This document shows positions 57,514 to 63,765 of a stretch of DNA of 64,000 nt, piece after piece. The notes under the pieces are model-generated. The model was not told the origin of the DNA. It saw only the letters and a list, made by a program, of their open reading frames with translations, and made no database searches. A program made the position numbers and the translations under genes. The DNA comes from Ruegeria sp. Alg231-54 (GTDB lineage Bacteria; Pseudomonadota; Alphaproteobacteria; Rhodobacterales; Rhodobacteraceae), in assembly GCF_900143525.1 (NCBI RefSeq), contig NZ_FREZ01000003.1, positions 186,001 to 250,000 of the forward strand, written 5' to 3'. The number at the start of each line of letters is the position of its first letter. The first letter of the stretch is position 1.

Positions 57514-60500
57514 ATGGAACCCACACTATTTTCGTTCATCTGGAAACACTCAAAAAAGCAGCAACTTGTGCTGTTGTTTCTGACGGTATTGTCGTTTCCG
57601 TTTCTCTACGCCTCGCTTGAGCTGCCAAAACAGATCATCAACGACGCAATTGGTGCGCCCAACGATAGCGTTACGCTTTTTGGGTTCACCTTCACGCAGG
57701 TCCAATATCTGCTAATCCTCTGTTTTGCATTTTTGGCCACTGTAATCGCCAGCGGCTTGATGAAGATGCGCATCAACACGATGAAGGGCATATTGGCCGA
57801 GCGTATGCTGCGCCGGCTTCGGTTCACGCTGATTCACCGCGCGATGCGATTCCCGAAATCGTATTTTGCCACCACCAGCCAAGGTGAACTTGTTTCAATG
57901 ATCACCTCAGAGGCCGAACCGATGGGCGGTCTGATGGGTGATGCGATTGCCCAACCGGTGTTTCAGTTTGGTCAGATGATGACCATTGTCACCTTTCTGT
58001 TCATGCAAAGCGTTTGGTTTGGTCTGGCCAGCATCGCATTGATTCCGTTGCAGGCATGGCTGATCCCAAAACTGCAGCGCCAGATCAACCTGCTGAACAA
58101 GGAACGTATTCAGCAGGTCCGCCACCTCAGCTCGGAAATTGGCGAAAGCGCGGCGGGCATCAGCGATTTGCGGGCCAATGGTGGCTGGCGCTATCGGTTG
58201 GCACAATTCAGCCACCGGTTGGGAACCTTGTTCGAGATCCGGTTCAAGATCTACAACAAGAAGTTCTTTATGAAGTTCCTCAACAATCTGATCACTCAGA
58301 TGACACCGTTCCTGTTCTATTCGGTCGGTGGCTATCTGGCGATCACGGGTGAGGTGACAGTGGGCGCGTTGGTCGCGGCGCTTGGGGCATACAAGGACCT
58401 AAGTGGCCCATGGAAAGATTTGCTGACCTATTACAACCAGGTTCAGGATATGTCTTTGCGCTGGGAAATCGTCATTGAACGCTTTGCCCCGGACAACATG
58501 ATCCCTGAAGAGCTATTTGTGGGTGAGCCAGAGTCTATTCCGCATCTCAGCGGAGATATCGAACTGCGCAATGTAACAGTGCGCGATGATGACGGGAAAA
58601 CCATCCTTGAAGATATCGACCTGACCATCCCCAAGGGTGCCCGCGTTGCTATTCAGTCTTCAAGCGCCGCCGAACGCGGCGCGTTGGCACAACTGCTGAC
58701 ACGAGAGCTTTTGCCGATACAAGGCAGCGTCACAATTGCGGGTCATGATCTGCAAAAACTCCATCAGACGGTAATTGCGGCGCGGATCGGCTATGCCTAT
58801 TCGCGGCCCTATCTGTTTGACGGGACTTTGGGTGACAACCTCTTGATGCCGTTGCGAACCCGCCCACAACACGAACCCGACGCGAAGAGGGCCCCAAGCC
58901 GGTGGCAGATCGAAGCGGTGCGGGCCGGGAACCCACCGGATTCCCTGTTGGATGAGTGGATTGATCCCGGCCTGGCAGGGCTGGAAGACATCGAGGATAT
59001 CCGTAACTGGTGGTTCCAGCTGGTCGAGGCGATGGGCATCGACGAGTTCATGTTTCGCCGAACATTACGTACCCAGTTCGATCCATTGCAACATTCTGCC
59101 CTGGCGCGGGATATCGTAAATCTGCGCGATACGGTCGCGCAGAGGTTGGAAGAAAAAGACCTGGCGCGGTATGTCTATCGGTTCGAACCGGACCGCTTTA
59201 ACCCGGCGGTTCCACTGGGGGGCAACCTGCTGTTTGCCGCTCCGTCTCGCGATATCTCACCGGATATTCTGGCGGGCGATGATCGGTTCATGTGGATGCT
59301 GCGCCATCACGATCTGGATGATGACGCAATGAGCATTGCAAGCGCGGTGCTGGAAACACTGCTCCAGACGTTTGGGCGGGACGGGGCAGATCACCCGCTG
59401 TTTCTTCGTCTGGGTATGGCCAAGGAAATGTTCCACCGTCTGCTTGATATCGAGGATCGGCGCAAAGCCAAAGGGGATGAAGCAATCAGCGAGGGCGAGC
59501 GTGCCTTGTTGCTGACCGTTCCGTTCCTGCTGACGGCGGAACAGATCGGACCTGATTTTCCGGACGAGTACAAGGATAAGATCTTGGCCATTCGAAGGGG
59601 GCAGGCGGAACAGCTGCGTGCCTCGATGGACGGGATGTTCGTTCCGGTCACGCCAGATGCATATATTGAACGCATGACTGTCATGGAAAATGCCCTGTTC
59701 GGGCGGGTTTCTTTGATGGCCGGGGCGCACGCGGATGAAATCGAAGATGTCGTCGCCGAAGCCATGAACGAAGCTGGCCTGCGCCGCCGGGCGGCAGCCA
59801 TTATCTATGACCTACCGTCAGGACTTGGCGGGAATAACCTGCCGACAGTGTTTCAGGAACGCGCCGCATTCTCACGCGCGGGAATCAAGCGTCCTGATGT
59901 GTTGATCCTGGACAAAGCTCTGGCCAGCCATGATTCCGAGAGCAGGCTGAGAACCCGGCTGAAACTGCGGGAATTGTTGCCGGATTCCATCATGGTCTTC
60001 ATGGAGGATTACTTCGCCCATCCCGAAGCCTATGATCTGTTCGTCGAGATCAAGGATGGTCGAATTGACGGCGTCTCGCGGACCCGTCCAGAAGAGGAGG
60101 CCAGCTCAACGGATGACCTGAGCCGTAAGCTCAAGATTATCTCGTCGACCGAGCTGTTTTCCGGCATTGACGGTCGCAACCAGCGCCTTCTGGCGTTTTC
60201 GGCGCAATGGTACGATGCCGCAGCCGGGCAGATCATCTTTTCCGAAGGGCAAACGCCAGATGCCGCTTATCTGTGTATTTCGGGCGAAGCCGACCTGATC
60301 TGGAATGAAGGGAACGGAACCGCGCGTACGATCTCGGTCATCGAGCCGGGGCGTCTGATCGGAGACTTGTCGATTATCACAGGCGAAATTCGGCAATTTG
60401 ATTTGGTTGCGGTCAAAAATTGTTCGTTCCTGCGCATTGGGGCCGAGGAATTGCGCGCGGTTATTGAAAGTGACGCAGGTGTTGCAATGCAGCTGCTGCA

Positions 60501-60612
60501 AACGGTTGCCGGCTATCTGACTACGATTTCCGAAAGGCTAAACGCCGCCAATGCAACCTCATTGATCTTCGATGATGACGAGCCGAACCGGGAAACGGCC
60601 GACAATGCCTGA
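57514..60612 (+). CDS. ABC-exporter-like protein with degenerate ATPase domain and cNMP-binding domain
   Basis: A 1032-residue protein. N-terminal: an ABC type-1 six-helix transmembrane domain (about 15-310). Next: a nucleotide-binding-domain fold in which every catalytic motif is altered. The Walker A place reads QSSSAAERGA (381-390) with no GK[ST]; the Q-loop Gln is Ser430 (AYSRPYLF); the Walker B Asp800 is followed by Lys801 instead of Glu; the signature LSGGQ is replaced by LPTVFQ (776-781); and the H-loop His is gone. About 270 residues (445-715) are inserted between Q-loop and signature. C-terminal: a cNMP-binding domain (about 865-1015) with a cassette like GRLIGDLSIITGEIR. I start at 57514; 48 codons upstream are open but lack signals. 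It overlaps the CPBP gene by eight bases. Confidence 0.85.
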   Translation: MEPTLFSFIWKHSKKQQLVLLFLTVLSFPFLYASLELPKQIINDAIGAPNDSVTLFGFTFTQVQYLLILCFAFLATVIASGLMKMRINTMKGILAERMLRRLRFTLIHRAMRFPKSYFATTSQGELVSMITSEAEPMGGLMGDAIAQPVFQFGQMMTIVTFLFMQSVWFGLASIALIPLQAWLIPKLQRQINLLNKERIQQVRHLSSEIGESAAGISDLRANGGWRYRLAQFSHRLGTLFEIRFKIYNKKFFMKFLNNLITQMTPFLFYSVGGYLAITGEVTVGALVAALGAYKDLSGPWKDLLTYYNQVQDMSLRWEIVIERFAPDNMIPEELFVGEPESIPHLSGDIELRNVTVRDDDGKTILEDIDLTIPKGARVAIQSSSAAERGALAQLLTRELLPIQGSVTIAGHDLQKLHQTVIAARIGYAYSRPYLFDGTLGDNLLMPLRTRPQHEPDAKRAPSRWQIEAVRAGNPPDSLLDEWIDPGLAGLEDIEDIRNWWFQLVEAMGIDEFMFRRTLRTQFDPLQHSALARDIVNLRDTVAQRLEEKDLARYVYRFEPDRFNPAVPLGGNLLFAAPSRDISPDILAGDDRFMWMLRHHDLDDDAMSIASAVLETLLQTFGRDGADHPLFLRLGMAKEMFHRLLDIEDRRKAKGDEAISEGERALLLTVPFLLTAEQIGPDFPDEYKDKILAIRRGQAEQLRASMDGMFVPVTPDAYIERMTVMENALFGRVSLMAGAHADEIEDVVAEAMNEAGLRRRAAAIIYDLPSGLGGNNLPTVFQERAAFSRAGIKRPDVLILDKALASHDSESRLRTRLKLRELLPDSIMVFMEDYFAHPEAYDLFVEIKDGRIDGVSRTRPEEEASSTDDLSRKLKIISSTELFSGIDGRNQRLLAFSAQWYDAAAGQIIFSEGQTPDAAYLCISGEADLIWNEGNGTARTISVIEPGRLIGDLSIITGEIRQFDLVAVKNCSFLRIGAEELRAVIESDAGVAMQLLQTVAGYLTTISERLNAANATSLIFDDDEPNRETADNA

Positions 60613-61501
60613 CGCCCGCCCCGGCAGGTACATAGCGCATGAACGACTTGTTGCACCTTCGCGCGCACGGCCAGAGCTTTGGCGCCTGCTGGTCGGGCTG
60701 ACCATTGTTGGCGTGGTTGGCATCCTTCTGAACTTTCTACTTTTTGGATTGGTTGCGGGTTTTGGATCCGTCGAATGGGCCCAAGGTTTGCTGACCGGCG
60801 CATCCCCGGTTGCACTTTTGGTTCTACTGGCAAGCTTTGGCTTCATCACATTGGGCGTGTCCATCGCTGCAAAACGCCTACAACATCGAACTCTGAGCTC
60901 AATCTGTGGTCCATGGCGCAAGGGCATTGGGCAATTTTGGAATGTTTTTAAGGCATTGCTGATCGTTGGGATCGTCGTGGCCATCTTGCCGCCATATGGC
61001 ATGGGCGCAACGCTGACGCAGAATTTGGCACTGTCGACCTGGCTGTTGTTTCTGCCTTTCTCGCTTTTTGCAGTGCTGATTCAGACAAGCGCAGAAGAGG
61101 TGCTTTTTCGGGGATACATTCAGCAAAGTCTGGCAGCGCGATTCCGATCGCCGGTTATTTGGTTGGGCGTACCGTCGATTTTGTTCGCGGCAGGTCACTA
61201 TGCCCCCGGCGCGGCCGGAGACAACGCGCTATTGGTTGCTGTGTGGTCTGGGATGTTTGGCCTGATGGCGGCGGATCTGACGGCACGGGCAGGGACGTTG
61301 GGGCCTGCTATCGCATTGCACCTGTTCAATAATATGGTCGCTCTCCTGTTTGTTTCCTTACCCGATGGCTTAAGTGGTCTGGCATTGTATCTGCTTCCTT
61401 ACGACATGTCGGATACCGGGGCGCTGCGGCAATGGCTGTATGTGGATTTTGCTGTGATGATCGTCAGTTGGCTAACAGCGCGGGTTGCGCTCAGGCGTTG
61501 A
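60605..61501 (+). CDS. CPBP family intramembrane metalloprotease
   Basis: A 298-residue membrane protein with about eight helices and the Rce1/Abi motifs: EExxxR in SAEEVLFRGYIQ (about residue 163), FAAGH, and HLFNN. Such proteases act on prenylated or signal-like peptides, or give immunity to bacteriocins. The start codon lies inside the end of the ABC-like gene, so the two are co-translated and probably work on the same process. The accD gene follows after 60 bases. Confidence 0.87.
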   Translation: MPDARPGRYIAHERLVAPSRARPELWRLLVGLTIVGVVGILLNFLLFGLVAGFGSVEWAQGLLTGASPVALLVLLASFGFITLGVSIAAKRLQHRTLSSICGPWRKGIGQFWNVFKALLIVGIVVAILPPYGMGATLTQNLALSTWLLFLPFSLFAVLIQTSAEEVLFRGYIQQSLAARFRSPVIWLGVPSILFAAGHYAPGAAGDNALLVAVWSGMFGLMAADLTARAGTLGPAIALHLFNNMVALLFVSLPDGLSGLALYLLPYDMSDTGALRQWLYVDFAVMIVSWLTARVALRR

Positions 61502-61561: not shown

Positions 61562-62494
61562 ATGAACTGGATTACAAACTACGTCCGCCCACGGATCAAC
61601 TCGATCTTCTCGCGCCGAGAAGTGCCGGAGAATCTTTGGCACAAATGCGATGAATGCGGAACCATGCTGTTTCACCGTGAGTTGGCAGAAAACCAGAATG
61701 TCTGCACCCAGTGCGATCATCACATGGCGATCACTCCGCGCGAGCGGTTCGATCATCTTTTCGATGGTGGGATCTTTACCGAGGTCGAGGTTCCCGCGCC
61801 CAAAGACGATCCGCTGCAGTTCCGCGATCAGAAAAAGTACCCCGACCGGATGAAAGCCGCCCAAAAGAAAACGGGCGAGAAAGAGGCGATGTTGGTCGCT
61901 CTGGGTGAAATTGGCCGAACCCCGATTGTGGCAGCTGCGCAGGACTTTTCGTTCATGGGCGGATCCATGGGCATGTATGTCGGCAACGCGATCATCGCGG
62001 CCGCGCAAGAGGCGGTGAAGCTAAAGCGCCCGCTGATCCTGTTTTCGGCCGCTGGCGGCGCGCGGATGCAGGAAGGTATCCTGAGCCTGATGCAGATGCC
62101 CCGCACAACCGTGGCAGTAGAAATGCTGAAAGAGGCAAATCTGCCCTACATCGTAGTGCTGACTCACCCAACGACAGGTGGTGTGACGGCTTCATACGCG
62201 ATGCTGGGTGATGTCCATATCTCAGAGCCCAATGCGCTGATTTGTTTTGCCGGTCCACGCGTGATCGAACAGACGATCCGGGAAAAGCTGCCCGAAGGCT
62301 TCCAACGCGCGGAATACCTGTTGGATCACGGCATGTTGGACCGTGTGACCAAGCGGACCGAAATGCGCGATGAGTTGATCACCATCACGCGGATGTTGAT
62401 GAACCAGCCTCCGGCGGTCAAAGGTGATCTGCCTGCGCCCGAATCCGAAGATGCAGTGGCAGAAGCCCCGGCTGAAGACGCGGAAGAAAAATGA
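61562..62494 (+). CDS. accD: acetyl-CoA carboxylase carboxyltransferase subunit beta
   Basis: Carboxyltransferase beta subunit of acetyl-CoA carboxylase, making malonyl-CoA for fatty acids. The 310-residue protein starts with a zinc ribbon (C29, C32, C48, C51) and has the crotonase-fold stretches [12 protein letters not shown] and [14 protein letters not shown]. The C-terminus is an acidic Ala/Glu-rich tail. It overlaps folC by ATGA, the usual accD-folC pair. Confidence 0.97.
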
Positions 62495-63765
62495 CCTCTC
62501 AGACATCGGACATCATTCTGGAGAGGATGATGGCGCTGCATCCCAAGATCATTGACCTGACCTTGGATCGTGTCTGGCGTCTGCTGACCACGCTGAACAA
62601 TCCGCAAAACAAACTGCCGCCGGTGATCCATATCGCGGGAACCAACGGCAAGGGCTCGACCCAGGCCATGATCCGAGCGGGGCTGGAAGGGGCAGGGCTG
62701 ACCGCCCATGCCTATACCTCGCCCCACCTGGCCCGGTTTCATGAGCGTATTCGTCTGGCGGGTGAACTCATTTCCGAACCGGATCTGACGGCGGTTCTGG
62801 ACGAATGTTATGCCGCCAACGGTGGCGAGAACATCACGTATTTTGAGATCACGACCTGCGCGGCCCTGCTGGCTTTTGCCCGGTCCAAGGCGGACTACAC
62901 GTTGCTTGAGGTCGGGTTGGGTGGCCGGTTGGATGCGACCAATGTCATTCACGACCCAGCGGTAACGGTCATCACGCCGGTTTCAATCGACCATGAGCAA
63001 TTTCTGGGCGATACCTTGGGCAAGATCGCCGCAGAAAAGGCCGGCATCATCAAGCCCGGTGTTCCCTGCATCGTTGGCCCGCAACAGGATGAGGCGCTGG
63101 AGGTCATTGAATACACTGCCGCGCGTCTGGGTGCACCTTTGTTGATGCATGGCCAACACTGGCACGTCACCGAAGAAAACGGGCGGCTCGTCTATCAGGA
63201 CGAAACTGGCCTGCGCGATCTACCGCTGCCAAATCTGTTGGGCGCACATCAGTATCAAAATGCCGGTGCTGCGCTAGCGGTCTTGCGTTATCTGGATCTT
63301 GGGGAAGACGCCTATGAGGCTGCGGTGACCAAGGCTGAATGGCCAGCCCGCATGCAGCGATTGAAAACCGGCCCTCTGGTCGAACAGGCCCCCGAGGCCG
63401 AGCTCTGGCTGGATGGCGGTCACAACGCGGCCGCGGGTTTGGCATTGGCCGATCTACTGGCGAAGCTGCCTGCACGTCCAACCCATATGATCTGTGGGAT
63501 GTTGAACACAAAGGACGTCACCGGGTATCTGGCTCCGCTGGCCGCACAGGCGCAAAGCCTGACGGCAGTCTCTATCCCGGGCGAAGTCAATACGCTGAGC
63601 GCTGACGACACCGCTGAAGCCGCTTCTCGGGTTGGGCTAGCAGCGTCTACTGCCAATAGTGTGGCCGAGGCCCTGAAAAAAATTACTGAAGATGACCCGC
63701 AGGTGCGGGTTCTGATCTGTGGATCGCTATACCTGGCCGGTAATATTTTGCGCGAGAACGGCTGA
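62491..63765 (+). CDS. folC: folylpolyglutamate synthase / dihydrofolate synthase
   Basis: A Mur-ligase-like enzyme that adds glutamate to dihydropteroate and folates. At 424 residues it is standard. The P-loop is [21 protein letters not shown] holds the metal-binding segment; the C-terminal glutamate-ligase domain has LWLDGGHN. It is coupled to accD and ends in a region with an 11-base G run before the convergent zapE-like gene. Confidence 0.96.

Follow-up and report, generated by a model that had tools for sequence, protein, structure and literature searches.

An ABC exporter-fold protein family with an eroded ATP site, a tandem-repeat insert, and a cyclic-nucleotide-binding partner

We analyzed a 64,000-nucleotide stretch of the Ruegeria sp. 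Alg231-54 genome (contig NZ_FREZ01000003.1, positions 186,001 to 250,000, forward strand), called the window here. It carries a gene for a protein that joins an ATP-binding cassette (ABC) exporter membrane domain, a nucleotide-binding domain (NBD)-like fold, and a C-terminal cyclic-nucleotide-binding (CNB) domain. We call this gene and its orthologs copy A and the paralog found in the same genomes paralog B; Table 1 lists the features. The frame is open without a break over 1032 codons. An alternative upstream GTG would give a 1080-residue product, but the ATG at 57514 is the likely start because homolog alignments begin at MEPTLF. Pfam matches are ABC_membrane (PF00664, residues 41 to 289), a partial ABC_tran (PF00005), and cNMP_binding (PF00027, residues 903 to 987). 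Open reading frame (ORF) analysis and Pfam thus agree with the initial annotation, which had proposed an intact frame with these three parts. In an NCBIfam scan, none of the 25 models listed reached its cutoff.

Table 1. Features of copy A, downstream genes in the window, and two membrane-only relatives
Feature	Residues	Position (nt)	Strand	Basis
Copy A, pseudo-ABC/CNB protein, 1032 aa		57514..60612	+	ORF, Pfam, orthologs in 24 other genus genomes
Membrane domain, ABC exporter fold	1-325	57514..58488	+	PF00664, AlphaFold2 model, Foldseek, omega 0.031
NBD-like domain, N-terminal part	345-445	58546..58848	+	PF00005 partial match 365-457
Ex-Walker A, QSSSAAERGA (Arg388, Gly389)	381-390	58654..58683	+	Column alignment
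Ex-Q-loop Gln column, Ser430	430	58801..58803	+	Column alignment
Insert; with flanks, tandem diverged copies of post-Q-loop segment	446-715	58849..59658	+	Profile self-comparison
Second ENLLFG-like element	563-577	59200..59244	+	Profile comparison
Third ENLLFG-like element; NBD C-terminal part starts	718-731	59665..59706	+	Profile comparison
Ex-signature, LPTVF	776-780	59839..59853	+	Column alignment
Walker B Asp800 kept, Lys801 replacing catalytic Glu, D-loop SHDSES (805-810)		59899..59943	+	Column alignment
Ex-H-loop His column, Asp832	832	60007..60009	+	Column alignment
CNB domain	875-1010	60136..60543	+	PF00027, PDB sequence matches to CNB proteins
CPBP/Rce1-like protease gene, overlaps copy A end by 41 nt		60572..61501	+	PF02517
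accD and folC, next after CPBP		61562..63765	+	ORFs; names from annotated Ruegeria conchae record; recur in other genera
Membrane-only relative, 402 aa		L003 1474-2679	-	
Membrane-only relative, 314 aa		L004 1468-2409	-	

Copy A has the Type IV ABC exporter arrangement, PF00664 followed by an NBD-like domain. An AlphaFold2 model built with 63 homologs had a predicted local distance difference test (pLDDT) score of 79 and a predicted template modeling (pTM) score of 0.74; the membrane domain, NBD, and insert were mostly confident and the CNB domain was not. Every one of the 50 Foldseek matches listed was an ABC exporter resembling P-glycoprotein, TmrAB, or PCAT1; TM-scores were 0.23 to 0.37 by query length and reached 0.61 by target length.

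We aligned 13 family members with five canonical exporters, three from the same genome and two from relatives, and read off seven ATPase columns: Walker A Lys and Ser/Thr, Q-loop Gln, signature Ser, Walker B Asp, catalytic Glu, and H-loop His. Four of the five controls had K, S/T, Q, S, D, E, and H, and the fifth had Q for H. At the same columns, copy A had R, G, S, P, D, K, and D. The alignment confirmed the positions proposed for the former Walker A (QSSSAAERGA), for Lys801 in place of the catalytic Glu, and for SHDSES. The initial annotation had also stated that all ATPase motifs were lost. This holds for the Walker A Lys, Q-loop Gln, signature, catalytic Glu, and His. It does not hold for the Walker B Asp (D800) and the D-loop Asp (D807), the two features of a functional ABC ATPase that copy A keeps.

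Copy A was present in all 25 genus genomes searched, its own included, at 75 to 100% identity and with no internal stops. Full-length paralog B was found in the same 25 genomes at 50 to 52% identity to copy A, and five Ruegeria plasmid records matched copy A at 79.7 to 84.6%. We estimated omega (dN/dS) across the genus by the Nei-Gojobori method; because the synonymous divergence dS was near saturation, we used only pairs with dS of 0 to 1.5 (106 of the 300 pairs for the whole protein and 44 to 232 for individual regions). Omega was 0.08 for the whole protein, 0.031 for the membrane domain, 0.09 for the N-terminal NBD part, 0.144 for the insert, 0.06 for the C-terminal NBD part, and 0.11 for the CNB domain. 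These values indicate purifying selection and bear out the proposal that copy A is maintained and not decaying; an isolated pseudogene is rejected by the omega of 0.08 and the open orthologs. Residues 764 to 812, from the former signature to the D-loop, had an omega of 0.033. This stretch is among the most constrained parts of the protein despite the loss of its ATPase residues.

We then took a residue census of 39 A, 11 B, and 109 distant members; the alignment had one more row (160 in all), L169, a further copy in genome G178 that was kept out of these three groups. Left out were L111 and L130, which contain X residues, and L167 and L168, which have the membrane part only. Because distant members were picked by similarity, one set being the 80 best among 569 confirmed, they are not a random sample. 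The Walker A Lys, Q-loop Gln, signature Ser, catalytic Glu, and His were kept by none of the 39 A and none of the 11 B copies. We looked among these close homologs for intact Walker A and B motifs, which would have made copy A an isolated degenerate, and found none. Ser or Thr occupied column 389 in 17 A copies, and the Walker A Lys was absent there too. The residues that copy A does have in this region were nearly invariant among its orthologs: E387 and R388 in 39/39, D800 in 37/39, and D807 in 38/39. Paralog B had no Pfam ABC_tran match at E ≤ 0.01.

Distant members were partly decayed. Among the 109, the Lys was kept by 69, Ser/Thr by 12, the Q-loop Gln by 30, the signature Ser by 70, the Walker B Asp by 11, the catalytic Glu by 70, and the His by 46; the signature Gln was retained in 99, and position 389 was Asp or Glu in 76. 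All seven ATPase residues occurred together in none of the 159 family members, and the best case was six, in 2 of the 109 distant members. Erosion of the ATP site is therefore family-wide and graded, with A and B at the extreme. Copy A is thus the end of a series and not a lone oddity.

The initial annotation had also described an insertion of about 270 residues between the Q-loop and the signature. It is real and 270 residues long, with a mean AlphaFold2 pLDDT of 65 to 97 per 10-residue block. Searches of Pfam (E ≤ 1) and of PDB sequences (E ≤ 10) gave no match to it, which rules out a known domain at these thresholds. We compared profiles of segments from distant members, using 60 column shuffles and the reversed profile as nulls. 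The post-Q-loop segment matched the next segment with a score of 58.1 (shuffle maximum, 12.0; reversed, 8.8), and the second matched the third with a score of 40.1 (shuffle maximum, 11.7; reversed, 3.4). The only match between the first and third repeat units was short and lay at the edge common to both. The insert is thus largely a tandem duplication of the segment after the Q-loop. As a result, the NBD has three ENLLFG-type elements, compared with one in the canonical control exporters.

At E ≤ 1e-30, homologs were found in 58 of 190 sampled genomes of the class (Alphaproteobacteria), in a few only as pieces on separate contigs, and in 26 of 120 genomes sampled at the level of the taxonomic family, two of which (G399 and G400) matched through membrane-only proteins alone. 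A draw of 200 genomes from the phylum gave 19 at E ≤ 1e-60: 18 inside the class, some with the NBD-insert part only, and one outside it with the membrane part only. Named matches included Azospirillum, Inquilinus, Tistrella, Sneathiella, Nisaea, and Reyranella; metagenome-assembled genomes labeled beta- or gammaproteobacterial also matched, although these labels may be unreliable. Plasmid records with matches came also from Rhizobium, Sinorhizobium, and Phyllobacterium. Among the plasmid records listed, the annotations were "ABC transporter transmembrane domain-containing protein," "ABC transporter ATP-binding protein," "cyclic nucleotide-binding domain-containing protein," or similar. We searched the literature for inactive ABC exporters and for a family of this kind, and it is described in none of the titles and abstract openings listed. 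We concluded that the family is real and unusual and undescribed in the literature searched: its ABC exporter fold has a dead ATP site, its NBD contains a tandem-repeat insert, and it is partnered by a CNB module. Two side observations concern individual matches. On pSymB of Sinorhizobium meliloti 1021 (L210 13962-16713), the homolog matches as two pieces in different frames, whereas it matches in one piece in several other Sinorhizobium records. In a divergent group (L217 to L220), the NBD and insert match a distant member at 32 to 34% and the membrane domain is barely recognizable.

In a midpoint-rooted tree of 56 rows, in which the long branches L165 and L186 are uncertain, copy A formed one group (support, 100/99) nested in a group from the same taxonomic family that includes B (100/100). 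The earlier branches of this group, L161 and L163, are B-type by label, so copy A looks like a duplicate that arose there.

Relatives consisting of the membrane part alone, with open frames of 315 to 349 codons, occurred in 25/25 genus genomes. Separate membrane-only frames were present in 14 of the 190 class genomes, all of which also carry the NBD-bearing family. Three genomes (G399, G400, and G449) have a glycosyltransferase (GT) of the kind described below and a membrane-only relative, with no NBD-bearing member at E ≤ 1e-30. Together with these genomes, the membrane-only relatives indicate that the membrane part may work without an ATPase, and they suggest that it is the functional core. 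The L003 type of relative adjoins multicopper-oxidase-like genes in two genera, as judged by eye.

The CNB domain of copy A scored 54.7 bits against PF00027 (gathering score, 27.5) and had PDB sequence matches to CNB proteins. CNB phosphate-binding cassettes are expected to carry a Glu and an Arg. The Arg is kept in 39/39 A copies; paralog B has the Glu in 9/11 and the Arg in 11/11, and eight separate CNB genes, one apparently misaligned, have them in 7 and 8, respectively. Among 80 distant loci, 67 had a CNB match downstream on the same strand, 0 to 619 nucleotides from the ABC-like gene; four loci carried it as a fusion and four at another place in the locus, it was not seen in 4, and one contig ended early. 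One variant, L107 2077-5613 (P0004), is a pseudo-ABC protein fused with CNB and GGDEF domains. We also considered antiphage defense and rejected it: PADLOC matched the CNB part of P0001 twice, both times weakly (E values, 1.1e-5 and 3.1e-5), and gave no match for the seven other proteins scanned.

The distant members also have recurrent GT neighbors. Of 48 long loci, 44 had at least one of four GTs no more than about 8 kb away. GT28-like a was found in 40, GT28-like b in 39, GT4 a in 44, and GT4 b in 41, where the two queries of each type can match each other's genes. The same loci had a histidine phosphatase (38), a deacetylase-like gene (35), a methyltransferase (21), and Opp-type permeases (7 each); Azospirillum lipoferum 4B provides an annotated example. 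Across the 190 class genomes, the family occurred with GT28a in 55, the family only in 3, the GT only in 2, and neither in 130. In the 120-genome sample, a GT was present in all 26 genomes with a family match and alone in four; three of these four rest on weak GT matches (37 to 38%), and the fourth is G449. Linkage between the family and the GTs is partial. In the genome of the window, the GT cluster (G000:C10:62343-67465) lies about 19 kb from paralog B, and the distance is 17 to 33 kb in 10 of the 24 genomes compared. The cluster (L213 7004-19851) includes a deacetylase-like gene, a histidine phosphatase, a methyltransferase, and peptide-importer-like permeases.

Copy A has a different companion. 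The CPBP gene starts at an ATG (60572) inside the 3' end of copy A, as the initial annotation had noted in hinting at a shared process. That hint is strengthened: a CPBP gene lies directly 3' of copy A in 39/39 A loci (L157 was seen partly, at a contig end) and beside none of the 12 other family copies tested, of which three have hardly any sequence beyond the gene, or none. The two frames certainly overlap in the window; an 11-nucleotide overlap is annotated in R. conchae, and elsewhere the overlap is extrapolated. The R. conchae gene order is gpmI, M23 peptidase, S41 peptidase, MFS, hypothetical, DUF6478, copy A, CPBP, accD, folC, and zapE, and the window matches it as far as folC.

The ATP-site residues have been lost, yet the family is widespread, maintained, and usually found beside GT and CNB genes; hence, it probably works without burning ATP. 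We propose a family of ABC-exporter-fold subunits that no longer hydrolyze ATP and whose membrane domain would do the work. Tandem repeats of the post-Q-loop segment have enlarged the eroded NBD, which may now serve as a structural coupler or docking platform. The CNB module, a separate neighboring gene in most distant members and fused in copy A, may supply the control signal, with gating by a ligand. The family would serve the conserved GT pathway, most likely by moving or holding a lipid-linked product at the inner membrane. Copy A would then be a duplicate, present in the genus and its relatives away from the GT cluster, that became paired with a CPBP gene and lost nearly all of its ATP-site residues. 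On these sequence patterns, we put at about even the chance that copy A is a nonhydrolyzing, ligand-regulated flippase or scaffold for a glycan pathway. Unlikely, in our judgment, is that the exporter family swapped its energy source, with a CNB-sensed signal gating an ATP-independent flippase or channel for a glycan precursor.

Several observations weigh against the flippase or scaffold proposal. Distant members often keep the signature Ser and Gln and the Walker A Lys and may therefore still bind ATP or contribute to a shared site. The initial annotation had called the C-terminal domain of copy A a cyclic nucleoside monophosphate (cNMP) sensor; the domain and its cassette Arg are there, but the cassette Glu is Asp in 39/39 A copies, which leaves sensing by copy A uncertain, and pLDDT is below 50 across most of its CNB domain. 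With Asp in A and Glu in most B copies, the two may respond to different ligands, or cNMP may not bind to A at all. The Fisher p of about 2e-41 for co-occurrence of the family with GT28a in the class genomes is uncorrected for shared ancestry; three of these genomes have the family and no GT, and two fragmented ones (G049 and G148) have the GT while lacking both the family and any membrane-only relative. Paralog B was not seen near the GTs in 14 of 24 genomes, in 13 of them on different contigs of draft assemblies and in one at 79 kb, where the B assignment is weak. Copy A is itself unlinked to the glycan cluster, and in the genome of the window it and the GTs are on different contigs.

One alternative is that copy A is the degenerate half of a heterodimeric exporter, lending its signature or its fold to a canonical half with its own ATP site, as in TM287/288 and TmrAB. 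Distant members lose the Walker A Ser/Thr (12/109 kept), Walker B Asp (11), and Q-loop Gln (30) more than the signature (Ser, 70; Gln, 99), as such a role would have it, and TmrAB is among the 20 best Foldseek PDB matches of copy A. However, A and B have lost the signature, so a canonical partner would still leave both composite sites incomplete. The ABC ATPase that recurs in the neighborhood reads as importer type, near substrate-binding and permease genes, with no search for a canonical partner made elsewhere in the genome. We consider this explanation unlikely. We are equally doubtful of a nonhydrolytic sensor of ATP or another nucleotide that binds through Asp800, Asp807, and a rebuilt E387-R388 pocket and reports to the membrane domain. 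The near invariance of these four residues in A and the constraint on residues 764 to 812, about equal to that on the membrane domain, fit such a sensor; the loss of the Walker A Gly residues and Lys and the missing ABC_tran match in B do not.

The pairing of copy A with the CPBP gene in every A locus, against none of the other copies tested, would also suit a protein that transports nothing and acts purely as a membrane scaffold or receptor, either for the CPBP protease or for glycosyltransferases. The membrane domain is, however, the most constrained large region and is found alone in relatives, which exceeds what an NBD used for docking would call for, and we regard a role confined to scaffolding as improbable. 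Finally, the loss of most ATP-site residues could mark a decaying remnant without function. The omega of 0.08 and the open frames in 25/25 genus genomes and in other genera refute this idea, to which we give a next to negligible chance.

ABC exporters are defined by ATP-driven alternating access. Copy A shares its fold and domain order with Type IV exporters such as MsbA, PCAT1, and P-glycoprotein, as the PDB sequence and structure matches indicate, but unlike them it has lost ATP-site residues and has a 270-residue repeat insert and a CNB module. TM287/288 and TmrAB resemble the family described here in having at least one ATP-site residue replaced in a stable family. They retain one consensus ATP site, whereas A and B have lost both the Walker A motif and the signature. 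SUR1 and CFTR put the ABC exporter fold to regulatory or channel work and retain nucleotide binding, while Walker A is erased in copy A. SbmA/BacA-type peptide transporters, of a different Pfam family, have an ABC-exporter-like membrane domain that works without an ATPase; they are comparable with the membrane-only relatives L003 and L004 and have no NBD remnant or CNB domain. Bacterial CNB proteins, to which the PDB sequence matches point, and cNMP-gated channels resemble the family in that a CNB domain adjoins a membrane protein or is fused to it. Copy A, unlike the channels, has no channel domain, and the gated part would be the ABC fold. The family is widespread and conserved, its ATP site is eroded to differing degrees among paralogs, and it has membrane-only relatives; it thus offers a natural experiment in what an exporter fold can do when ATP is not used. 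The GT link gives a concrete place to seek a substrate, and gating can be tested because the CNB gene is split off in some members and fused in others.

We made one further observation on paralog B. In the genome of the window (L002 near 1498; G000:C10:86355), it opens with ATA where copy A has ATG. The codon at this position of B was ATA in 17 and ATC in 3 of 20 of the 24 other genus genomes. B-type copies of other genera had ATA or ATC in 8/10, with ATG in L161 and L163 (all rows compared: L002; L221 to L240; L039, L158 to L160, L162, and L170 to L172). A GGGGC(A/G)GG-like stretch lies immediately upstream of this codon in most of them. In 15 of 20 B leaders there was no in-frame ATG, GTG, TTG, or CTG after the last stop, and codons 2 to 17 vary mainly at silent positions. 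Judging from this pattern, paralog B likely uses a conserved noncanonical start codon (AUA or AUC).

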